Positions 2,410 to 16,048 of a DNA stretch of 64,000 nt are shown in pieces. Source of the stretch: Acidobacteriota bacterium. GTDB taxonomy: Bacteria > Acidobacteriota > Vicinamibacteria > Vicinamibacterales > UBA8438. Location of the stretch: assembly GCA_009838525.1 (NCBI GenBank), contig VXRJ01000018.1, positions 645,087 to 709,086 of the forward strand. The letters are read 5' to 3'. Position numbers and translations under genes: made by a program. The notes under the pieces are model-generated. The model ran no database searches, was not told where the DNA came from, and saw nothing but the letters and a program-made list of their open reading frames with translations. Position 1 is the first letter of the stretch, and every line of letters starts with the position of its first letter.

Positions 2410-2447
2410 TGTTCCTCCTTGCCTCCCCATCGGAAGCAGTGCGAGGC

Positions 2448-2598
2448 GTGACCGGACCGGTCTCCTGGCTTGCAGGCGTCGCCTACTCTCCGCGCCTTCC
2501 CACCCCGAAGGGCAGTGGCCACCGTGCGGATTTCGTACCTGTTCACAGTTGCGAGGGCAGCGTCGGTCTAAGCACCGAACTTCCCGTCATCCGGTCAC
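2448..2598 (-). promoter_or_regulatory. Cobalamin (B12) riboswitch
   Basis: Read on the minus strand, the outer stem GTGACCGG (2598-2591) pairs perfectly with CCGGTCAC (2455-2448). Inside are the conserved elements in order: GGGAA and GGTGC near the 5' side, CTGCCCTCGCAACTGTGA, GCCACTG, GGGAAGGCG and the B12 box AGCCAGGAGACC (about 2470-2459). A short hairpin GCCTC (2447-2443)/GAGGC (2425-2421) lies between the aptamer and the ribosome binding site of btuF, so control of translation initiation is plausible. Ligand binding is expected to lower expression of the B12 importer. Confidence 0.95.
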
Positions 2599-2615
2599 AA
2601 CCGTGTTGTGCCCGC

Positions 2616-5104: not shown

Positions 5105-5134
5105 TTGACACGCTTCGACACGGTCTGCTACGCT
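5105..5134 (+). promoter_or_regulatory. Promoter of the aromatic amino acid supraoperon
   Basis: A perfect TTGACA (5105-5110), an 18-base spacer and TACGCT (5129-5134) form a good sigma-70 promoter. Transcription should start near 5141, only about five bases before the ATG of the leader peptide at 5146. The leader peptide would then be translated from an almost leaderless 5' end. Confidence 0.7.
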
Positions 5135-5145
5135 CCGGCGCTACG

Positions 5146-5265
5146 ATGACGTTTCCGGGTCGGCAGAGCGGTTCGTTCGAGAGTGGCGCGGCGCGTGCCC
5201 CCTACGGGTATTGGTGGCGTTACTCGTTTGGGCTGCCTGCTGGGGAGGCTGTCATCCGCACCTGA
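5146..5265 (+). CDS. Leader peptide for aromatic amino acid attenuation (39 aa)
   Basis: This is a short ORF directly after the promoter, ATG 5146 to TGA 5265. Its middle encodes Tyr20-Gly-Tyr22-Trp23-Trp24-Arg-Tyr26-Ser-Phe28, six aromatic residues in nine codons (5203-5229). This is the hallmark of attenuator leader peptides such as TrpL and PheL. The stop codon lies 25 bases before an intrinsic terminator, and the operon behind it makes chorismate, Trp, prephenate and 4-hydroxyphenylpyruvate. Charged-tRNA sensing of Trp and Tyr, with some Phe, is the inferred role. No Shine-Dalgarno is visible, so initiation would be near-leaderless. Confidence 0.75.
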   Translation: MTFPGRQSGSFESGAARAPYGYWWRYSFGLPAGEAVIRT

Positions 5266-5324
5266 TCAGAGACCGACGGACGACACCACAGCCTCTTCAG
5301 CCAGCCGGTTGAAGAGGCTTTTTT
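5245..5324 (+). terminator. Transcription attenuator: intrinsic terminator with competing antiterminator
   Basis: The terminator stem AGCCTCTTCA (5290-5299) pairs with TGAAGAGGCT (5310-5319), 10 perfect base pairs around a 10-base loop, followed by a run of six T (5319-5324). The upstream stretch GAGGCTGT (5245-5252) is perfectly complementary to ACAGCCTC (5288-5295), so it can form an exclusive antiterminator. It lies just inside the end of the leader peptide frame. A ribosome stalled on the Trp/Tyr codons about 30 bases upstream would leave it free to pair. This matches the classical 2:3 versus 3:4 switch. aroDE starts 20 bases after the T run. Confidence 0.85.
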
Positions 5325-5343
5325 GTGTCCGGAGGCAGGACCG

Positions 5344-6828
5344 ATGCCCAAGGCGTGGATTTGCGCGACCGTGACCGGCGACACGACAGCCGAGCTGCGC
5401 GCACACCGCGACGCACAGACCGAAGCGGACCTGGTTGAACTGCGCCTCGACACGGTCAACCGGCCGGACGTTGCCGCGGCAATCGCCGGCCGCCGGGCAC
5501 CGGTTGTCGTCACGTGCCGGCCAACCCGGGAGGGAGGCCACTTCGACGGCAGTGAAACCGAACGTGAGTCGATCCTGTTCGAGGCGGCAGCCCGGGGCGC
5601 CGAGTACATCGATGTGGAACACGACGCGCCGTTCGCCAACAGGCTCATTCGGTCCCGCCGCGGCCACGGCGTTGTGCTGTCGTATCACGCCTTTGACCGC
5701 CGGCCCGACGATCTCGCCAAACGCTACCGCGCCATGCGCGCGACTGGTGCGGAGGTGGTCAAGGTGGCGGTTGCCGTCAGCAGTCTGACGGACGCGCTGC
5801 GCGTGACCGCCACCGGCAATCCGAGGAACGAAGAGGATGGCGGGCGGCGCGTGCTGGTCGCGATGGGCGCGGCGGGAATCCCGTCGCGCCTGCTCGCGGG
5901 ACGCTTCGGATCCTGCTGGACGTATGCGGGCGACGGCGTCGCACCGGGTCAGGTTGACCTGAAACGCATGAGGAACCAATTCCGCGCCGGTGAAGTGACT
6001 TCACGCACGGCGGTCTATGGCGTTCTGGGCGCCCCAATCGGTCACTCCGTGTCTCCCGCGATGCACAACGCCGGTTTCCGCGCCCTGGGCATGGATGCCA
6101 TCTACCTGCCGCTCGAAGCGGAGAGCACCGACGATTTCGCGGCCTTTGCCCGGTCGGCGGATCTACGCGGGGCCAGCATCACCGCGCCATTCAAGGAAAC
6201 GGTGGCGGAATCCACTAGTGTCCGTGACGATGTGTCGTCGGCGGTCGGCGCCGTCAATACGCTACGGATCGTCGACGGGCGCTGGATCGGCTGCAACACG
6301 GACGTCGCCGGTTTTCTCGCGCCGCTCGCGGGTCGGCTGCGCCTCGCCGACGCCCGCGCCACGGTTCTCGGCGCCGGGGGCGCGGCCCGAGCGGCGGCGT
6401 ACGCGCTCCGCCAAGCGGGCGCCATCGTGACGGTATGCGCGCGCCGACCGAAGCGGGCGGCCGAGGTGGCGCGCGCAACCGGCGTCGCCTCGGCGCCACT
6501 CCCTCCAGGGCGCGGATCATGGGACCTGCTCGTCAACACGACGCCGGTCGGAACGTTCCCCGATGTTGAAGCGAGTCCGCTGCCGGATGGACCGTTTGAC
6601 GGCCAGATCGTCTACGACATGGTCTACAACCCGACCACGACACGTCTGCTGGCGGACGCGGCGAGCGCCGGATGTGAAACGATTGGCGGCCTCGCGATGC
6701 TGGTGGCGCAGGCAGAAGAGCAGTTCGCCTGGTGGACGGGCAAGCGCCCACCAGGCGGACTGTTTCGGGCTGCGGCGGAGAGGGATCTCGCGCGTCAGGC
6801 GACCGGCACAGATGGTGCGGCGACATGA
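5344..6828 (+). CDS. aroDE: Bifunctional 3-dehydroquinate dehydratase (type I) / shikimate dehydrogenase
   Basis: This is a 494-residue fusion catalysing two consecutive shikimate-pathway steps: dehydroquinate to dehydroshikimate, then NADPH-dependent reduction to shikimate. The N-terminal part (about 1-215) has the AroD features ELRLDTV, the catalytic His in VLSYHAF and the Schiff-base Lys in GAEVVKVAV. The C-terminal part starts at YGVLGAPIGHSVSPAMHN (substrate-binding SxS) and has the nucleotide loop VLGAGGAARAAAYAL and NTTPVGTFP. The start at 5344 is set by GGAGG nine bases upstream. The gene is first behind the attenuator and overlaps trpE by ATGA. Confidence 0.93.
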   Translation: MPKAWICATVTGDTTAELRAHRDAQTEADLVELRLDTVNRPDVAAAIAGRRAPVVVTCRPTREGGHFDGSETERESILFEAAARGAEYIDVEHDAPFANRLIRSRRGHGVVLSYHAFDRRPDDLAKRYRAMRATGAEVVKVAVAVSSLTDALRVTATGNPRNEEDGGRRVLVAMGAAGIPSRLLAGRFGSCWTYAGDGVAPGQVDLKRMRNQFRAGEVTSRTAVYGVLGAPIGHSVSPAMHNAGFRALGMDAIYLPLEAESTDDFAAFARSADLRGASITAPFKETVAESTSVRDDVSSAVGAVNTLRIVDGRWIGCNTDVAGFLAPLAGRLRLADARATVLGAGGAARAAAYALRQAGAIVTVCARRPKRAAEVARATGVASAPLPPGRGSWDLLVNTTPVGTFPDVEASPLPDGPFDGQIVYDMVYNPTTTRLLADAASAGCETIGGLAMLVAQAEEQFAWWTGKRPPGGLFRAAAERDLARQATGTDGAAT

Positions 6829-8366
6829 CGGAAAGCGCGATCGAAACGACGTTCGAGCAGTTCGCCGATCTCGCAGAGCAGGGGACCTTCATTCCCGTCT
6901 GCCGCGAAGTACGGACCGACCTCCTCACGCCCGTCTCCGCCTTCCTGACGGTGGCGGAGCACGCAGACCACGCGTTTCTGTTCGAGAGCATCGCCGGCGG
7001 AGAGCGGCTCGCACGCTACTCGTTCCTCGGCAAGGACCCCTTCCTCGTGCTGCGGTCCAGCGGCGGGCGGACTTTCTGCCGTGAGGCCGGCAGGAACGGC
7101 GGGGAGTCGATCGAACGGCCCGGGACTTTCATGGACGCGCTGCGTGACGTGATGGCGCGATACCGGGCGCCGCGTGTGGCATCGCTACCTCGGTTCACCG
7201 GTGGCGCGGTCGGCTATTTCGGCTACGACACAGCCGCCTGGTTCGAGTCCAAGCTTGCCGACGCCCGTTTCGCGCATCCGAAGCCGTTCGAGCAGGAGGG
7301 TGGCGGCGCGGCGGACGAGGCGGCGTTCATGCTCTTCGACACCGTGCTCGCATTCGATCACGTGAAGCATCGGATGCTCATCGTCGCCAACGCGGCGGTG
7401 GAGCAGGATTGCGACCTTCGCGCCCGCTACCATCTGGCCGTTGCGAAGATCGACTGCCTCCGCGCCGAGCTGCAGCGTCCTCTCTCGGCACCGCCTTCCG
7501 CGCCCGACGCGCCCGTCGCCTTCGAGTCGAACACGACGCGCGAGAGATTCGAGCAGGCGGTTCGAACCGCCAAGGAGTACATCGCCGCGGGCGACATCTT
7601 CCAGGTCGTGCTCTCGCAACGCTTCGACGCACGACTCGCGGCCGATCCCTTCGCCGTCTACCGGGCCCTCCGCCACGTCAACCCGTCTCCCTACATGTAC
7701 TGCCTCCGGATGGGGGAGTTGGCGATAGTCGGATCGTCACCGGAGATGCTGGTCCGGGTGGAGAACCGCCGGGCCGAGACGCATCCGATTGCGGGCACCC
7801 GGCCGCGCGGCGCCACGCCGGAGGCCGACGAAGCGCTGGCGGAAGAGCTGATCGAAAACGAGAAGGAACGTGCCGAGCACGTCATGCTGGTCGATCTCGG
7901 CCGAAACGACCTGGGACGCGTCTCGGCGTACGGCTCGGTCCAGGTGCCGGTCTATATGACGCTGGAGCGGTACTCGCACGTGATGCACCTCGTGTCCCGG
8001 GTCGTTGGCCGGCTGACCGACGAGCACGACGCACTCGATGCGCTCACCGCCTGCTTCCCGGCCGGAACGGTATCCGGCGCGCCGAAGATCCGCGCCATGG
8101 AGATCATCGAGGAACTCGAGCCTACACGGCGCGGGGTGTACGCCGGCGCGGTCGGGTACGTCGACTTTGCAGGCCATCTGGACTGCTGCATAACCATCCG
8201 GACGATTGTGATCCGCGACGGGCGTGCCTCCGTGCAGGCCGGCGCGGGCATCGTGGCGGATTCCGATCCCGCGGCGGAGTACGAGGAAACGCGCGCGAAG
8301 GCGTCCGCGATGTTCCGGGCAATCCGGATGGCGCAAGGCGACTCCGGTGGAGACGGAGACCCATGA
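6825..8366 (+). CDS. trpE: Anthranilate synthase component I
   Basis: This is a 513-residue chorismate-utilising subunit that makes anthranilate from chorismate with ammonia from TrpG. The N-terminal region contains the allosteric-site type motif LLESxxGG as LFESIAGGERLARYSFLG. The C-terminal chorismate-binding domain carries GDIFQVVLSQRF, PIAGTRPRG, ENEKERAEHVMLVDLGRNDL, FPAGTVSGAPKIRAMEIIEE and a final QAGAGIVADSDP. The length is usual for the family. The ATG overlaps the aroDE stop (ATGA). Feedback inhibition by Trp is likely given the conserved N-terminal pocket, but this is inferred. Confidence 0.97.
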   Translation: MTESAIETTFEQFADLAEQGTFIPVCREVRTDLLTPVSAFLTVAEHADHAFLFESIAGGERLARYSFLGKDPFLVLRSSGGRTFCREAGRNGGESIERPGTFMDALRDVMARYRAPRVASLPRFTGGAVGYFGYDTAAWFESKLADARFAHPKPFEQEGGGAADEAAFMLFDTVLAFDHVKHRMLIVANAAVEQDCDLRARYHLAVAKIDCLRAELQRPLSAPPSAPDAPVAFESNTTRERFEQAVRTAKEYIAAGDIFQVVLSQRFDARLAADPFAVYRALRHVNPSPYMYCLRMGELAIVGSSPEMLVRVENRRAETHPIAGTRPRGATPEADEALAEELIENEKERAEHVMLVDLGRNDLGRVSAYGSVQVPVYMTLERYSHVMHLVSRVVGRLTDEHDALDALTACFPAGTVSGAPKIRAMEIIEELEPTRRGVYAGAVGYVDFAGHLDCCITIRTIVIRDGRASVQAGAGIVADSDPAAEYEETRAKASAMFRAIRMAQGDSGGDGDP

Positions 8367-8367
8367 C

Positions 8368-8936
<569 letters not shown>

Positions 8937-8940
<4 letters not shown>

Positions 8941-9983
8941 CGGAACCGACACCCCCGGGGACTCGGGCGCGGGAGGCTATCGAGACCCTGCTGCGTCGGG
9001 AAGATCTGGTCGCCGGACAGGCCGAGGCGGTGATGGAGGAGGTGATGTCGAGCGGGGCGACGCCGACCCAGATCGCCGGTTTCCTGATCGCCCTTGCCAT
9101 GAAGGGCGTCCGGCCGCCGGAGCTGGTCGGGCTCGCAAGGACGATGCGCCACCACGCCGTGCGCCTTCCGGCGGTGCGTGAGGCCTGCTTCGACACCTGC
9201 GGCACGGGCGGCGATCGGTCGAACACGTTCAACGTGTCGTCCGTCACGGCAATCGTGCTCGCGGCGTGCGGGATCGAGGTGGCGAAACACGGTAACCGGT
9301 CGGTCTCTAGCCGGTGCGGCAGCGCCGATCTGTTCGAAGCACTCGGCGTCCGAGTGGACGCGGGCCCGGACATCGTGACCAGATGTCTCGACAAGGCGGG
9401 TATCGGGTTCTTCTTCGCGCCGGCGTTCCATCCCTCCATGCGCCATGCCGGCCCGGTTCGACGCGAACTGGGAGTGCCGACCGCGTTCAATCTGTTGGGC
9501 CCACTCACCAACCCAGCCGGCGCGCGCCGGCAGGTGATTGGCGTGCCGCGGCCGGAGTTGACCGACCTGCTGGCGCAGGCGCTGCTCGAGTTGGGGACCG
9601 AGCGTGCCTGGGTAGTCCATGGCACGGCCGGTCTCGACGAAGTGTCGACCGTCGGGCCGACGAAGGTGTGCGAGGTGCGCGACGGGGAGGTTGCCGCCTT
9701 CTTTCTGTCTCCCGGTGACTTCGGCCTGCCCGAGACGAACCTGAGTGACCTTCGCGTGGAGGGCCTCGACGAGAGTGTCGCCGTCGCGCGCTCCGTGCTC
9801 GGCGGAGAGAAGGGACCGGCCCGAGACTTCGTTCTCGCGAACGCGGGATCGGGCCTGCTGGTGGCCGGCCAGGTCGACTCGCTCAGGGACGGAGTGGCCT
9901 TGGCCGCGAGGGCAATCGACGAGGAAAGGGCGCAGGCAACGCTCGCCACGATGGCGCGGGTTTCGCAGGAGGGTAGCGCGTGA
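8937..9983 (+). CDS. trpD: Anthranilate phosphoribosyltransferase
   Basis: This is a 348-residue enzyme that transfers phosphoribosyl from PRPP to anthranilate. The N-terminal helical domain (SSGATPTQIAGFLIALAMKG) is followed by DTCGTGGDRSNTFNVSS, which contains the PRPP/Mg loop, KHGNRSVSSRCGSADLFEALG, and RRELGVPTAFNLLGPLTNPA. The GTG start overlaps the trpG TGA. Length and motifs are typical, with no extra domain. Confidence 0.97.
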
Positions 9984-10831
9984 CGTACCGTCCTGATCTC
10001 CTCGAGACGATCGTGGCCGCGACGCGGCGTGACCTCTCGGACCGGACGAGATCCGATCCGGCGGCTCGCGGGAAGGGCGCCGCACGCGGTCACCAGCCGC
10101 GGGGCCAGGTGTTCATCGAGACACTGCGCGAAACGGGTCGATGCCGGGTCATCGCGGAGTGCAAGCGGCGTTCGCCCTCTCGAGGCGTGATCCGCAAGGA
10201 CTACGATCCTGCGGCCATCGCATCGAGCTATGCCGACGCGGGCGCCGCGGCGATCTCGGTTCTCACCGAGCGGGGTTTCTTCGATGGCGCCCTCGAACAC
10301 CTCGCCGCCGTCCGGCGAGAGGTATCGTTGCCGCTGCTTCGGAAGGACTTCATCATCGATCGGCGCCAGCTGACGGACGCAGCCGAGGCGGGCGCGGATG
10401 CCGTGCTGCTAATCGTGGCGGCCCTCGACGACAGGAACCTCCGGGATTTGACGGATGCCGCCAGCGAACTTGGACTGGCAACCCTGACCGAAGTGCACGA
10501 CCGCCGGGAACTCGACCGGGCGCTCGACGCCGGCGCGGACATCGTCGGTGTCAACAACCGGAACCTGCGGACGCTCGAGGTTGACCTCGATGCGTCACGC
10601 ACCCTTATCGAAGCGATCCCCGAGGACGTCGTCGCGGTCGCGGAGAGCGGCCTGCGCACGGCGACCGATCTGGCGGGATTGCGGCGTGCCGGCTACGACG
10701 CGTTCCTGATCGGCGAGTCGCTGATGCAGGAGCCCGATCCGGGTGCATCGCTCGGTAGCCTCTTGAACGAGACGGGAGAGATCCCGCGTGGCAGGAGACC
10801 CGCGGCAGCGCGGATCCAGGCAACCGCATGA
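9980..10831 (+). CDS. trpC: Indole-3-glycerol phosphate synthase
   Basis: This is a 283-residue TIM-barrel enzyme converting carboxyphenylaminodeoxyribulose phosphate to indole-3-glycerol phosphate. Motifs include VIAECKRRSPSRGVI with the catalytic Glu/Lys pair, ISVLTERGFFDG, LLRKDFIIDRRQL with the second catalytic Lys, VGVNNRNLRTLEVDL and VAVAESGLRT. It starts with GTG overlapping the trpD stop and ends in ATGA shared with trpF. The N-terminal 40 residues carry an extra basic insertion (about 15 residues, RSDPAARGKGAARG) compared with the minimal family. Confidence 0.97.
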   Translation: MTYRPDLLETIVAATRRDLSDRTRSDPAARGKGAARGHQPRGQVFIETLRETGRCRVIAECKRRSPSRGVIRKDYDPAAIASSYADAGAAAISVLTERGFFDGALEHLAAVRREVSLPLLRKDFIIDRRQLTDAAEAGADAVLLIVAALDDRNLRDLTDAASELGLATLTEVHDRRELDRALDAGADIVGVNNRNLRTLEVDLDASRTLIEAIPEDVVAVAESGLRTATDLAGLRRAGYDAFLIGESLMQEPDPGASLGSLLNETGEIPRGRRPAAARIQATA

Positions 10832-11511
10832 TGGTGAACGTGAAAGTGTGCGGGATCACGCGGGCGGGAGATGCCGCTCTTGCAGCGAAGCTGGGCGCCT
10901 CCGCAGTCGGCTTCATCTTCTGGCCGCGCAGTCCCCGCTACATCGAGCCCGCGGTTGCGGCCGGGATCGTGCGGTCTATGCCCGGGAACGTCGTCCCGGT
11001 CGGTGTCTTCGTGAATCCGACGCGTGAAGAAGTGCAGGAGGTCGCCGGCACGGTCGGTCTCGCCGGGGTGCAGTTGCACGGCGACGAGCCGGCGACCCTG
11101 TGCGACGGCCTTCCGTACGATGTCTGGAAGGCCGTGGCGGTCGATTCGAATCGTGACGTCACGCGTGCCCGGGTTGATGAGGTGCCAGACGAAGTGACCG
11201 TGCTGCTCGATGCCTCGGACCGCACCCGCCGAGGCGGGACGGGCCGGACAATCGACTGGGAGATAGCCGCTGTCATCGCCGCCGAACGCCGCACCATGTT
11301 GGCGGGTGGACTAGCCCCCGACAATGTCGGCGCGGCGCTCCGGCGGGTACGGCCCCATGGCCTCGACGTGTCGTCGGGCGTCGAAGCGTCGCCCGGTCAA
11401 AAGGACCCGGATAGACTGCGCGCGTTCTTCAACGCGGTTCGCGCCACCCATCAGGCGATGGGCGACGGCATGCGGGCCGCGCCCCGGCGTACCCTGGAGA
11501 ACTCGCGATGA
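10828..11511 (+). CDS. trpF: Phosphoribosylanthranilate isomerase
   Basis: This is a 227-residue TIM barrel performing the Amadori rearrangement between TrpD and TrpC. It shows [12 protein letters not shown] at the start (general base Cys), [31 protein letters not shown] with the general acid Asp, a short GGTG phosphate loop, [14 protein letters not shown] and GLDVSSGVE. Two in-frame starts (ATGATG) exist and the first overlaps the trpC stop. The order C then F as separate genes differs from the enteric trpCF fusion. Confidence 0.96.
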
Positions 11512-12770
11512 CGGCACCGGTCTTTCACCGGCGCGATCCCGATGCACGGGGCTACTTCGGCGCCTACGGCGGCCGGTTCGTCCCGGAGACGCTGGTAGCG
11601 CCGGTTGAAGCACTGGCCGCGGCCTATGACGAAGCGCGCGCCGATCCCGCATTCGCCGATCGACTCGCTGGCCTGCTGGAGCGCTACGTGGGCCGGCCGA
11701 CACCGATTACGGCAGCCGACCGCCTGCGCGCCGCCGTCGCGGCGGACGCGGGAGTCGCCGTGGACCGGGTAGCCCGCATCCTCCTGAAACGCGAGGATCT
11801 CGCGCATACGGGCGCCCACAAGATCAACAACGCGCTGGGCCAGGGGTTGCTTGCGGTTCGGATGGGAAAACGGCGCGTCGTCGCGGAAACCGGGGCGGGG
11901 CAGCATGGCGTCGCGACGGCCACCGCCTGCGCCCTGCTCGGCCTCGACTGCCATGTCTACATGGGAACGGAAGACATGGCGCGGCAGGCGCTCAACGTCT
12001 ACCGCATGCGTCTGCTCGGGGCGGACGTGACGGGAGTCGACGCGGGCAGCCGGACACTGAAGGATGCGATCAACGAGGCGATGCGCGACTGGGTAACGAA
12101 CGTGACGGACACGTACTACCTGCTCGGCTCGGTGCTTGGCCCGCACCCGTACCCGTTGATGGTGCGTGAGTTCCAGTCGGTGATCGGCCGTGAGGCGCGC
12201 GCGCAAACCCAGACGCTGGTCGGCCGCAACCCGGATGCCGTGGTCGCCTGCGTAGGCGGCGGCAGCAACGCGCTGGGCATCTTCGACGGTTTTGTCGATG
12301 ACGGACAGGTCCGGCTGATCGGCGTCGAGGCAGGCGGCGAATCCCTTGCGCCCGGACGCCACGCGGCCCGCTTCGCCACCGGCATGGCGGGCGTACTGCA
12401 GGGAACGCGCACCTTCATCCTGCAGGACGGCGACGGCAACATCGAGCCGACCCATTCCATCTCGGCCGGACTCGACTATGCTGCGGTCGGTCCGGAGCAC
12501 GCGTGGCTGCGCGACCTCGGACGCGCCGAGTACGACTCGGTCTCCGACACCGATGCGCTGGCCGCGTTCCGGGAACTGGGACGGACGGAGGGCATCCTGC
12601 CGGCGCTGGAGTCAGCGCACGCCGTGGCTTACGCGAGGCGCCTGTCCCTTGCCCTGGGAGGCGGCAACGTAGTCCTTGTGAATCTGTCCGGAAGAGGCGA
12701 CAAGGACGTCGAAGCGGTCCGTGATCGCGAGGCGGAAGGCAATCCAACCCCTGGGGGGAGCGCGAGCTGA
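11508..12770 (+). CDS. trpB: Tryptophan synthase beta chain
   Basis: This is a 420-residue PLP enzyme condensing indole with serine. Motifs are [12 protein letters not shown] at the N-terminus, the PLP Lys in [51 protein letters not shown] for phosphate binding, and [16 protein letters not shown]. It is the canonical TrpB1 type that pairs with TrpA, whose gene follows directly. It has a slightly longer segment around [16 protein letters not shown] near residue 80. ATG overlaps the trpF stop. Confidence 0.97.
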
Positions 12771-13612
12771 TGTCGCGCCTCGAAACGACATTCGCCGCAT
12801 TGCGCCGGGCGGGCCGGCCCGGTCTGGTGACGTACACGACGGCGGGCGACCCCGACCTGGCTTGCTCCGGTCGCATTCTTCGGGCCCTCGATGCGGCGGG
12901 CGCCGACGTACTCGAAGTAGGCGTGCCCTTTTCCGATCCGCTGGCTGATGGGCCGGTCATTCAGCGTGCTTCCGAACGGGCGCTGTCCGCCGGCGCCACG
13001 CTCCGCCGGACCCTGTCTCTCGTGGCGGAGGTTCGACCGTCGATTCGGGCCGGAATCGTGTTGTTCACGTACGCCAATCCGGTGATTCGGATGGGGCTCG
13101 AAGACTTCGTCGACCGGGCGTCCGCGGCGGGCGTTGACGGCGTGCTGATGCTCGATCTGCCGATAGAAGAGGCTGACGGGTTGCGGGCGGCGTTGGACGG
13201 ATCGGGAATCGACCCGATATTCCTGCTGTCGCCGACGACCACCGATGCGCGGCTCCGGAGGGCCGCAGCACTGGGACGAGGGTTTCTCTACGGCATCTCG
13301 AGACTCGGGGTGACCGGCGCGAGAGATACGATCGCCGTAGGCGCCAAGGCGCTCGTCGAGAGGATACGCGCGGCGTCCGAACTGCCCGTCGCGCTGGGCT
13401 TCGGGATATCGCGACCGGAGCAGGTGGCTGAAGTGACCCGCTGGGCGGACGCCGCGGTTGTCGGCAGCGCGCTCGTGGACGTGATCGCCCGTGCCACCCC
13501 GGACACGGCAGCGACAGAGGCGGCCCGGTACGTCGCCTGGCTCCGGGGAGCGGATGGAGCGGTCGCCGTCGCAAACGGAACGGCGGCGACGGCAGGGCCG
13601 GATGACGACTGA
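12770..13612 (+). CDS. trpA: Tryptophan synthase alpha chain
   Basis: This is a 280-residue TIM barrel cleaving indole-3-glycerol phosphate to indole for TrpB. It shows LVTYTTAGDPD, the catalytic Glu in VLEVGVPFSDPLADGPVIQ, the catalytic Asp in DGVLMLDLPIEEADGL, LSPTTTDARL, YGISRLGVTGAR and ALGFGISRPEQV. The start shares one base with the trpB stop (TGATG). The C-terminal 20 residues are alanine-rich and probably disordered. Confidence 0.97.
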   Translation: MSRLETTFAALRRAGRPGLVTYTTAGDPDLACSGRILRALDAAGADVLEVGVPFSDPLADGPVIQRASERALSAGATLRRTLSLVAEVRPSIRAGIVLFTYANPVIRMGLEDFVDRASAAGVDGVLMLDLPIEEADGLRAALDGSGIDPIFLLSPTTTDARLRRAAALGRGFLYGISRLGVTGARDTIAVGAKALVERIRAASELPVALGFGISRPEQVAEVTRWADAAVVGSALVDVIARATPDTAATEAARYVAWLRGADGAVAVANGTAATAGPDDD

Positions 13613-13655
13613 GCGACCTGGATGGACGGCGCGGGAACGCGCGGGAGCGAGACCC

Positions 13656-14003
13656 ATGGGGGCAGACCAAAAGACAGAGACTCAGGGGGCGCCAGCGGCA
13701 GATGGCGGAAACGACATCACCACCAGCCTGGACGCCTTCCGGGGACAAATCGACCGGCTCGACGCAGAGATCGTGCGCCTGCTGAACGCGAGAGCCACCT
13801 GCGCAAACGAGATCGGCTGGCTCAAGGGTCGGGTGGGCATGGAAATCTACGATCCGGCCCGCGAGAAGGCGGTGCTCCAGCATGTCCGGCAGACGAATCC
13901 CGGCCCGCTCGACGGTGACGCGGTTGCTCGGGTCTTCGAGCGGATCATCGACGAGTCGCGCCGGATGGAGCGGCTGACAACGGAAGGACGCGAACGGCAG
14001 TAG
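13656..14003 (+). CDS. Chorismate mutase (AroQ type II)
   Basis: This is a small all-helical AroQ-type protein converting chorismate to prephenate. Core motifs are FRGQIDRLDAEIVRLLNARA, with the conserved Arg at the start of helix 1, and RVGMEIYDPAREKAVLQHV with a Lys/Arg active-site set, then FERIIDESRRMERL. I chose ATG 13656 (115 residues) with GGGAG nine bases upstream. An ATG at 13602 overlapping the trpA end would add 18 residues of low complexity. It is not fused to prephenate dehydratase or dehydrogenase. The neighbouring DAHP synthase may form a complex with it, as seen for AroQ/DAHPS pairs in other bacteria (inference). Confidence 0.9.
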   Translation: MGADQKTETQGAPAADGGNDITTSLDAFRGQIDRLDAEIVRLLNARATCANEIGWLKGRVGMEIYDPAREKAVLQHVRQTNPGPLDGDAVARVFERIIDESRRMERLTTEGRERQ

Positions 14004-14037: not shown

Positions 14038-15090
14038 ATGGTTGTAGTGATGGAAGAACGGGCGTCGGAGGATCAGATCCAGCATGTCATCGCGACGCTG
14101 GTCGAGAAGGGGTTCGACGTGCACCGGTCGACCGGCGCGCTGAAGACCGTGCTCGGCGCAGTGGGCGGTAACCGGGAATTCGACTCCGCCCTTCTGCAGG
14201 TGATGGAGGGCGTGCAACAGGTACTGCGAATCACGGAGCCGTACAAGCTGGCGAGTCGAACCTTCAAGCCGGAACGGACGCTTGTCTCGATGGGCGACTT
14301 TCGCATCGGAGGCGACGAGGTGATTGTCATGGCCGGTCCCTGCTCGGCAGAGACGGAAGAGCAGGTGGAGGCATCAGCCACGGCCGTCGCCGGTGCCGGC
14401 GCCAAGATGTTGCGCGGCGGCGCCTTCAAGCCTCGCAGCTCGCCCTACAGCTTCCAGGGCCTCGGCGAGGATGGCCTCAAGATGATGCGCGCGGCATGCG
14501 ACCGGCACCACCTGAAGCTCGTCACCGAGGTCATGGACGTCAGCCAGATCGACCTCGTGGAGCGCTACGCGGACATGTTGCAGGTCGGAGCCCGCAACAT
14601 GCAGAACTACTCTCTGTTGCGGGAACTGGGTCGCCGACGGACGCCGATCCTCCTGAAACGGGGCATCTCCGCCACTATCGAAGAATGGCTCCTGTCGTCG
14701 GAGTACATTCTGTCGGGCGGCAACACCGACGTGGTGTTGTGCGAGCGGGGAATCCGGACCTTTGAGACGTACACGCGGAACACCCTCGACATCTCCGCCG
14801 TGCCCGTGATCCACAAGCTGAGCCATCTGCCGATCGTCGCGGATCCGAGCCATGGCACGGGACTGCGAAACAAGGTGGCGCCCATGGCTCGGGCCGCCGT
14901 CGCGGCAGGCGCCGACGGGCTGATCATCGAGGTGCATCCCGACCCGGACCATGCCAAGAGCGACGGGGCGCAGTCGATGTTCCCGGAGCAGTTCGACCGC
15001 CTGATGGCGGAACTGCGGATCATTGCGCCGGCCATCGGCAGGAGCATCTGCGTCGAGCCGGCCGCGCGCCGCGTCCCGGCGAGGGCGTGA
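14038..15090 (+). CDS. aroF: 3-deoxy-7-phosphoheptulonate (DAHP) synthase, class I-beta with N-terminal regulatory domain
   Basis: This 350-residue enzyme condenses PEP and erythrose 4-phosphate, the entry step of aromatic biosynthesis. Residues 1-75 form a ferredoxin-like regulatory domain ([20 protein letters not shown]) as in Thermotoga DAHPS. The barrel has [72 protein letters not shown] with metal ligands, and [19 protein letters not shown] clear ribosome binding site AAGGAGAG precedes the start, one of the few in this operon and consistent with the 34-base gap. Feedback inhibition through the N-domain is likely. Confidence 0.96.
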
Positions 15091-15112
15091 CACGGATCCG
15101 GACCGCCAGACG

Positions 15113-16048
15113 ATGTCAGACGACGCGCGCCGCCTCCCCGTCGTGCAACCAGGGCGGGCCGGGACGATCCCGGCCACCGGCGACCCGCCGATCTTCGACA
15201 AGGTAGCCATCGTCGGCTTCGGGCTGATTGGTGGCTCCATCGCACTCGCCGCACGCCAACTCTGGCCTGCGGGTTTCGTTATCGGAGTCGACGACAAGGC
15301 GGTTCTCGAGCGCGCCATGGTCCGCCACGCGATTGACGTGGCGGCAGACGACCCGGTCGTGATGGCCGAGGCGGATCTCGTGATCCTGGCGGCGCCGGTC
15401 CGTGACAACCTGACGATCCTGGCCGACCTTGAACAGCACGTTTCCGGGCACGCCGTCGTCACCGACGTCGGCAGCGCCAAGCGGGACATCGTCTCGGCGG
15501 CACGCGCCCTGCCGACGCGCCTCACTTTCATCGGCGGACATCCGCTTGGCGGCGCGCCTCGGAGCGGGTTCGATCAGGCGCGCCCAGACCTCTTTCAGAC
15601 TCGCCCCTGGCTCTTCACGCCGACGGACGATCATCACCCCGAGGCGCTCGACCGCCTCCGACGATTCGTCACCGCGCTCGGCGCGACACCGCACGTCGTC
15701 ACCGCGGAGGCGCACGATCGGCTGATGGCATTCCTCAGCCACCTCCCGCAACTGGCGGCCAGTGCGCTAATGCACGTGGTGGGTGAGGAGATCGGAGCGG
15801 AGGGGCTTTCGCTGAGTGGTAGAGGGTTGTCCGATACGACGCGCCTCGCGTCGAGTCCGGCCGACATATGGCGGGACATCTGTGCAACGAACGAAGACGA
15901 AATCCACGTCGCACTCGATCGGCTTATTGCCGAACTGGAGACTATCCGCGATGGTCTCTCCGACGGAGGCGCGATAGACCGCGTGTTCGAGTCGGCCGCG
16001 GCGTGGCGCGAGGTGATGGCGGCAGGTTCCCGGACGGCGGGTCGCTGA
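15113..16048 (+). CDS. tyrA: Prephenate dehydrogenase
   Basis: This is a 311-residue TyrA-family NAD(P) enzyme that oxidatively decarboxylates prephenate toward tyrosine. The Rossmann loop VAIVGFGLIGGSIAL (about 26-40) is followed by the family segments VVTDVGSAKRDIV, FIGGHPLGGAPRSGF, HDRLMAFLSHLPQLAA with the catalytic His, and GRGLSDTTRLASSPADIW. No ACT domain is present. The start at 15113 lies 22 bases after the DAHP synthase stop. It is the last gene of the supraoperon. Prephenate dehydratase for Phe is not in the window. Confidence 0.93.
   Translation: MSDDARRLPVVQPGRAGTIPATGDPPIFDKVAIVGFGLIGGSIALAARQLWPAGFVIGVDDKAVLERAMVRHAIDVAADDPVVMAEADLVILAAPVRDNLTILADLEQHVSGHAVVTDVGSAKRDIVSAARALPTRLTFIGGHPLGGAPRSGFDQARPDLFQTRPWLFTPTDDHHPEALDRLRRFVTALGATPHVVTAEAHDRLMAFLSHLPQLAASALMHVVGEEIGAEGLSLSGRGLSDTTRLASSPADIWRDICATNEDEIHVALDRLIAELETIRDGLSDGGAIDRVFESAAAWREVMAAGSRTAGR

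Follow-up and report, generated by a model that had tools for sequence, protein, structure and literature searches.

The locus examined here raises the question of how a bacterium might adjust one long operon to its supply of more than one aromatic amino acid. In the window (the whole stretch of 64,000 nucleotides of an Acidobacteriota genome that was analyzed), an aroDE fusion gene opens a supraoperon that continues through the trp genes to tyrA, and an initial annotation, made from the letters alone, had placed a leader-peptide attenuator with a mixed Tyr, Trp and Phe stalling site in front of it. Ribosome-mediated attenuation and leaders of mixed codon content, such as those of ilv and thr, are established; what needs to be settled is whether the present element belongs among them and which amino acids it reads.

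Promoter, leader ORF, antiterminator and terminator can all be read directly from the sequence of the leader region, 5105-5343 (Table 1). The promoter coordinates, the 39-codon frame with its aromatic run and the perfect 10-bp terminator with a T run all proved to be correctly annotated, and two of the structures turn out to be larger than first described. The terminator core (5290-5299/5310-5319) is lengthened to a 13-bp stem by 5300-5302/5307-5309, and the antiterminator, initially given as 5245-5252/5288-5295, comprises 14 bp, including two G-U pairs, between GCTGGGGAGGCTGT (5239-5252) and ACAGCCTCTTCAGC (5288-5301). The energy of this duplex is -26.1 kcal/mol, with a z of -4.6 against shuffled sequences, none of 200 of which were as low. 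The leader frame translates as MTFPGRQSGSFESGAARAPYGYWWRYSFGLPAGEAVIRT, and by our own arithmetic from the amino-acid frequencies of the operon (W 0.5%, Y 2.1%, F 3.1%) the chance of 6 aromatic residues in 9 codons is about 2e-6 per position; codons 3 and 11 encode two more Phe residues outside the cluster. A chance origin of the cluster is excluded by its conservation together with the frame and shuffle controls described below. As the frame is open far upstream (866 codons, much of that antisense to divergent genes) and thus lacks an upstream stop, the start of the leader is set by the promoter and by conservation.

Table 1. Coordinates of the leader element and of the operon genes in the window
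Feature	Positions	Strand	Details and basis
Promoter TTGACA-18-TACGCT	5105..5134	+	TTGACA 5105-5110, 18-nt spacer, TACGCT 5129-5134; sequence, and strong promoter in 79/85 relatives
Leader peptide gene, 39 codons + TGA	5146..5265	+	ATG 5146-5148, TGA 5263-5265; without Shine-Dalgarno; sequence and conservation
Control codons 20-28, Tyr Gly Tyr Trp Trp Arg Tyr Ser Phe	5203..5229	+	Sequence; the last codons at which stalling is predicted to spare the antiterminator
Arm 2, antiterminator 5' side, within leader ORF	5239..5252	+	GCTGGGGAGGCTGT
Arm 3, antiterminator 3' side, overlapping terminator 5' arm	5288..5301	+	ACAGCCTCTTCAGC
Intrinsic terminator hairpin	5290..5319	+	5290-5302 with 5307-5319, 13 bp, one G-U, 4-nt loop
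Terminator T run	5320..5324	+	Sequence
Shine-Dalgarno GGAGG of aroDE	5331..5335	+	Sequence
aroDE fusion (3-dehydroquinase type I + shikimate dehydrogenase), first structural gene	5344..6828	+	
trpE	6825..8366	+	
trpG	8368..8940	+	
trpD	8907..9983	+	Start approximate
trpC	9980..10831	+	
trpF	10828..11511	+	
trpB	11508..12770	+	
trpA	12770..13612	+	
Chorismate mutase type II	13605..14003	+	Start approximate
DAHP synthase	14038..15090	+	
tyrA, prephenate dehydrogenase	15110..16048	+	Start approximate

The nearest upstream gene runs divergently on the minus strand (3628 to about 5022), and hence the leader terminator serves no other gene. Further out on that side lies a cobalamin riboswitch (2438-2609, minus strand; Rfam, 93 bits) upstream of a gene for a periplasmic binding protein (1489-2430), which is accompanied by a FecCD-type permease gene (503-1492); these probably constitute a vitamin B12 uptake operon. 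Apart from the reverse strand of the same palindrome, the covariance model R1 detects no second copy of the leader element in the window's genome at E < 1. Among the 4227 models of Rfam, none matches the leader element at or above its gathering score, and nothing meaningful emerges even at E 10. These searches bear on the idea that the leader RNA or the promoter is read by a T-box or by a Trp-binding protein (TRAP, TrpR), systems of a kind that regulates trp operons in Firmicutes and enterobacteria. The T-box model RF00230 matches neither the window's genome nor any of 31 relatives (0/31), with positive controls being found, and regulators of this type would leave the leader ORF unexplained; we regard them as hardly credible here.

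The element is not peculiar to this genome. AroDE is present in 93 of the 100 relatives searched, and the upstream DNA sampled covers about 86 aroDE loci from 15 families of the class Vicinamibacteria (Acidobacteriota), many of them in fragmented assemblies. In essentially every locus examined, promoter, leader ORF, antiterminator and terminator precede the operon. By a simple scan, every locus but one has a strong terminator immediately before aroDE, and that of the sole exception (G069) is recovered by the covariance model. The W-rich leaders stop 19-51 nt before the terminator, and nearly all loci carry Trp-rich aromatic clusters (e.g., WWWYYAF, YWWWY, WWYWC, WRWYWF, WFWFIYF), with the Glu/Gly-Ala codons that follow the cluster spelling arm 2; at least two Trp residues occur in 81 of 85 leaders, those of G002 and G009 being degenerate. 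The operon was followed over 12-15 kb in 20 further genomes: 19 keep the order aroDE-trpEGDCFBA-(CM)-DAHPS-tyrA, CM (chorismate mutase) or DAHPS (DAHP synthase) being undetected in a few, and the remaining contig ends early. In one family of the same class (f87; L210-L224), a leader peptide or attenuator was not seen upstream of trpE or aroDE, and its aroDE frame extends a long way upstream, as would be expected from a fusion or an overlap with another gene.

A further shared feature is the position of the leader start. At the corresponding position, 79 of 85 relatives have a strong promoter of the TTGAC-17/18-TAnnnT type, and in 36 of these 79 genomes an ATG in the leader frame lies 5-17 nt after the -10 box, against 0/79 in each of the other two frames; if GTG and TTG are counted too, the in-frame starts rise to 54/79 versus 13 and 5 in the other frames. 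Only two of 85 leader starts have a Shine-Dalgarno-like motif. Given that transcription usually begins about 6-7 nt after the -10 box, most leaders with such an in-frame start would be leaderless or nearly so. Longer 5' ends are found in families f3, f9, f13 and f14, in most of f11 and in half of f1, the family of the window. Near-leaderless initiation, as predicted from promoter position, is a conserved trait, and the initial estimate of about five nucleotides between the expected transcript start and the leader ATG is right in the same predictive sense.

Covariation within each of the alternative stems, which the initial annotation had named as a check, was assessed on an alignment of 58 leaders (A1) against 500 shuffles, with slid versions of the stems as a control. 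The terminator is 96.5% paired and shows two-sided changes in 9 of its 13 pairs, with 0/500 shuffles as high; the antiterminator is 92.2% paired, with two-sided changes in 5 of 10 pairs and 28 two-sided cells where 10.1 are expected (0/500 shuffles). None of the 500 shuffles reaches the value of either stem in paired cells, in two-sided cells or in covariation score, and both stems lie far above their slid versions. For the antiterminator, the count of two-sided pairs and that of pair types in this 58-leader alignment are no higher than in the shuffles, and its support therefore comes from the cell-based measures and from the duplex energies, which reach p <= 0.05 against shuffles in 66 of 85 genomes. 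The two stems share arm 3 and are mutually exclusive; the same bases of arm 3 have to find their partners either in arm 2 or in arm 4, and concerted substitutions in all three arms are seen (e.g., A-T-A to G-C-G). The conservation of the aromatic codons and of both pairings, on which the initial claim had been staked, was found throughout the order, and both stems carry compensatory changes. The terminator arm GCCTCTTCAGCC (window 5290-5302, A1 columns 108-120) is near-identical across the 15 families and resembles that of the sister family f16 discussed below. Pairing alone would not seem to demand so close a likeness, part of which may stem from arm 3 serving both stems and from arm 2 being coding sequence.

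In a switch of this kind the control codons should lie where a waiting ribosome leaves arm 2 free. We folded the RNA outside the ribosome, assuming a leading edge 12 nt downstream of the first base of the A-site codon, in a model that ignores kinetics. In the window, arm 3 is paired upstream with a probability of 0.90 when any of codons 12-28 is in the A site, and this falls to 0.67, 0.44 and 0.07 at codons 29, 30 and 31; the fall sets in right after codon 28, where the aromatic cluster ends. Over 85 genomes, each of the five positions that lead up to the last permissive codon is aromatic in 58-76% of cases; the figure is 27% for that codon itself and at most 5% beyond it. The scan for this boundary began from the last Trp; when it is redefined without Trp, from the complementarity near the stop codon, the aromatic peak again falls at the leading edge. 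In most genomes, a ribosome at the stop codon covers a large part of arm 2, although the arm's first few nucleotides lie just upstream of the trailing edge of the assumed footprint. In these models, stalling at the control codons is predicted to spare the antiterminator, and a ribosome at the stop codon to mask arm 2.

Taking these findings together, we propose that transcription would start about 5 nt before the leader ATG and that a ribosome would load on this near-leaderless 5' end. When Trp or Tyr is short, it would wait with its A site at one of codons 20-28 and its leading edge just short of arm 2, such that arms 2 and 3 would pair, the terminator would not form and the operon would be transcribed. 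When the amino acids are plentiful, it would reach the stop codon and cover arm 2, whereupon arms 3 and 4 would pair and transcription would end at 5320-5324. As any one scarce amino acid would be enough, the switch would act as an OR gate. A race simulation with assumed rates, which gauges consistency only and in which Phe codons 3 and 11 count, has slower Trp, Tyr or Phe codons each raising read-through, with fast decoding keeping it low at polymerase speeds of 25-40 nt/s. In the ribosome-free fold, arm 3 of the window is paired upstream with a probability of 0.79, and across genomes the antiterminator is partly formed in many (median 0.54). RNAalifold on A1 gives the terminator only, in an alignment that begins 9 nt before the last Trp and so limits the detection of a 1:2 protector; since no conserved hairpin of that type was found, the default without translation may be read-through.

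Another account would be a constitutive weak terminator, with a short upstream ORF that tunes basal expression or couples translation and senses no amino acid. Terminators upstream of operons can indeed set basal levels, but this account gives no reason for Trp and Tyr codons to follow the boundary of arm 2, for arms 2 and 3 to be complementary with compensatory change, or for leader codons to differ with operon content; we consider it very unlikely. The computed parts, their conservation across the order, the covariation of both stems and the placement of the Trp and Tyr codons instead make it highly probable that a ribosome-mediated transcription attenuator with Trp sensing, through the charging of tRNA-Trp, controls the whole aromatic supraoperon, and, given an attenuator, the sensing of Trp is very likely.

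The remaining question is whether Tyr and Phe are read as well. With one genome per family, Trp makes up 30% of residues in the stalling zone versus 1.5% outside (median p 7e-19) and Tyr 12.5% versus 2.0% (median p 1e-5). Ser, Cys, His, Arg, Gly and Ala show no order-wide enrichment in the zone. Phe, at 6.7% versus 4.7%, is not significant across the order (p 0.26), and we reject it as a general third signal; among the large families tested (f1, f2, f6 and f10), Tyr is enriched in each (p about 0.001) and Phe in f1 only, weakly (p 0.023). Of the mixed aromatic stalling site initially proposed, the Trp plus Tyr part stands across the order, and the Phe part finds weak support in the window's family. 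As the leaders had initially been chosen by aromatic density, two re-selections were used as a control for bias. Choice by Trp only returns the same ORF in 83 of 85 cases, and choice by an ATG near the -10 box, which uses no aromatic information, returns it in 36 of 36 genomes; in these 36 ATG-chosen leaders Tyr accounts for 37/324 residues (11.4%) in the zone versus 18/857 (2.1%) outside (p 3e-10), with 0.2% in other frames. The Tyr codons of the leaders are TAT in 54 cases and TAC in 48, whereas the operon genes of the window have 8 TAT and 46 TAC; the third base varies, indicating that conservation acts on the amino acid and not on the base, and usage in the leaders is shifted towards the rarer codon. 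A constraint on the RNA instead of the codon is unlikely in view of this about equal use of TAT and TAC.

It is nonetheless possible that the attenuator answers to Trp only and that Tyr (and Phe) are passengers, kept, for instance, for slow decoding beside Trp or for contacts of the peptide with the ribosome. Trp is the universal core of the leaders, as its counts attest, and family f5 has tyrA in its operon and yet leaders of a WWWW-C type without Tyr, from which it follows that Tyr codons are not indispensable. There is also a precedent for an unsensed Tyr: the aroR leader of Corynebacterium glutamicum contains Phe-Tyr-Phe and is reported, in the account consulted, to respond to Phe and not to Tyr (PMC11802643, citing Neshat et al. 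2014). It is chiefly this reported response of AroR to Phe only that cautions against assuming that Tyr is sensed. Against a Trp-only reading stand the 5-6 fold enrichment of Tyr in exactly the stalling zone, repeated in each of the large families, the mixed TAT/TAC usage combined with the lack of enrichment of the six other amino acids, the presence of tyrA and common-pathway genes in the operon, and the co-occurrence of His codons with his genes in f16. On balance, a Trp-only switch is a minority possibility that deserves to be taken seriously; sensing of Tyr by the leader, through tRNA-Tyr, is somewhat more probable than not, and that of Phe (tRNA-Phe) in the window's family is rather doubtful. 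A different alternative is a peptide-sensing arrest of the TnaC or ErmCL type, in which the ribosome, while making the leader peptide, halts in response to a free amino acid or another small molecule. A Trp-rich peptide is indeed conserved in this regulatory leader, but around the cluster the peptide is very variable, as the motifs listed above illustrate, and all that stays constant is the type of codon and how far it lies from arm 2, a pattern better suited to codon starvation than to a contact between peptide and tunnel; we judge such an arrest to be remoter still than the constitutive terminator.

A comparison with family f16, which belongs to another order of the same class (L169-L179, L186, L252-L255), is instructive with respect to codon repertoire. 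Its operon reads aroDE-thiF-hisZGDCBHA-IE-trpEGDCFBA, with CM and DAHPS then following in 3 of the 4 genomes read far enough. Its leaders are flanked by the same type of promoter and by a terminator of similar sequence (GCCTCTTCAGG), have ends such as VRRWRPVFRHHRYHP, VWRGSVHHHRHHS and VVRRWRTVFHYHWHP, and contain 2-5 His codons beside Trp, Phe and Tyr. In nine f16 leaders, His accounts for 27/126 of the last 14 codons (21%) and for 0/109 in the N-terminal parts; in the corresponding stretch of leaders from 48 genera in the query's order it accounts for 11/667 (1.6%; p 6e-15, or 1e-9 at the level of leaders). This is one evolutionary contrast between two clades, and the p-values gauge its cleanness, not independent events. 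The hairpins of f16 differ, in that the antiterminator arm comes after the stop codon and further hairpins intervene, and the simple arm-2 masking model fails for these leaders on both counts. The leaders of both groups bring together codons of more than one operon product, namely Trp and Tyr, enriched in the stalling zone, across the query's order and His, Trp, Phe and Tyr in f16, which suggests, at the level of sequence, that leader codons follow operon content. We lean, with reserve, toward an evolvable multi-input attenuator, in which one near-leaderless leader would read several amino acids and its codon repertoire would change with gene gain and loss: Trp and Tyr for aroDE-trp-tyrA, and Trp, His, Phe and Tyr for aroDE-his-trp.

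Several other leaders came to light in the same searches; matches of R1 outside the class are weaker, and their E-values are rough. Outside the class, a credible Trp leader, SNWWWYC*, lies upstream of aroDE-trpE in f38 (G138, L125), and another, GWWWRTAHAEGG, upstream of trpE in f19 (G102, L127), on the basis of which Trp leaders may predate the class. In f18 and f82 (L119, L120, L123, L124), WWW-type leaders and terminators are found upstream of a gene for a TrpB-like PLP enzyme. In f55, of the same phylum (L126, L128), a Leu/Val leader ending in ILLLLVLVLVLVTQGAN and a terminator precede a class IV aminotransferase (ilvE-like) gene; this is a probable branched-chain attenuator. Within the query's order, G069 has a Phe-type leader, MRRPAFPFACSFAGFIAGREAV, and a terminator directly before a chorismate mutase-prephenate dehydratase gene (L122:320-470; an R1 match). 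A crude scan of the window's genome and its close relatives revealed no Phe leader at a separate prephenate dehydratase gene. The remaining weak R1 matches in the phylum resemble plain terminators.

A close parallel is the E. coli trpL leader of trpEDCBA, with which the element shares a short leader ORF, tandem Trp codons, a 2:3 antiterminator opposed to a 3:4 terminator, and the freeing of 3:4 by a ribosome at the stop codon. It differs in that the operon opens with aroDE and closes with tyrA, that Tyr (and Phe) codons share the stalling site, that the ORF begins almost at the predicted 5' end of the transcript without a Shine-Dalgarno sequence, that arm 2 lies inside the ORF, where it would be masked by the terminating ribosome, and that a conserved 1:2 protector or pause hairpin was not found in the region covered by A1. 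The E. coli ilvGMEDA and thr leaders likewise combine codons for several operon-linked amino acids in one leader, but these are branched-chain or Thr/Ile, not aromatic, and the systems are gammaproteobacterial. A leaderless leader-peptide mRNA precedes a trp gene in Sinorhizobium meliloti (trpL; PMC7298713), an alphaproteobacterial case with a 14-residue leader and trpE(G) only. The actinobacterial trp attenuators of Corynebacterium and Streptomyces have double or triple UGG codons and a GC-rich terminator, and differ in reading Trp only; the survey that describes them reports no conserved structure for Phe or Tyr operons (PMC1262725). C. glutamicum aroR-aroF (PMC11802643) shares a mixed aromatic leader before a common-pathway gene and differs in phylum, in having no Trp codons described and in serving the aroF operon only. 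According to a 2010 survey, hardly any of the attenuators predicted in Acidobacteria had an assigned function, and leader-peptide systems, until the Firmicutes case described there, were demonstrated in Proteobacteria and Actinobacteria alone (PMC2965389). The novelty initially suggested for a mixed aromatic leader is partial, as aroR precedes it; for Acidobacteriota, a search of the open PMC literature yielded no earlier description of an aromatic attenuator.

Throughout one order of Acidobacteriota, the synthesis of Trp and Tyr, together with the common pathway, appears to be driven from one promoter via a single switch that is read by the ribosome. Should the mixed codons work, such a switch would balance several end products of a branched pathway. 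The conserved near-leaderless start raises the question of how the ribosome keeps pace with the polymerase, given that a pause hairpin is not evident. With operon layouts that have or lack his genes, whether leader codons follow the operon is directly testable by a leader swap.
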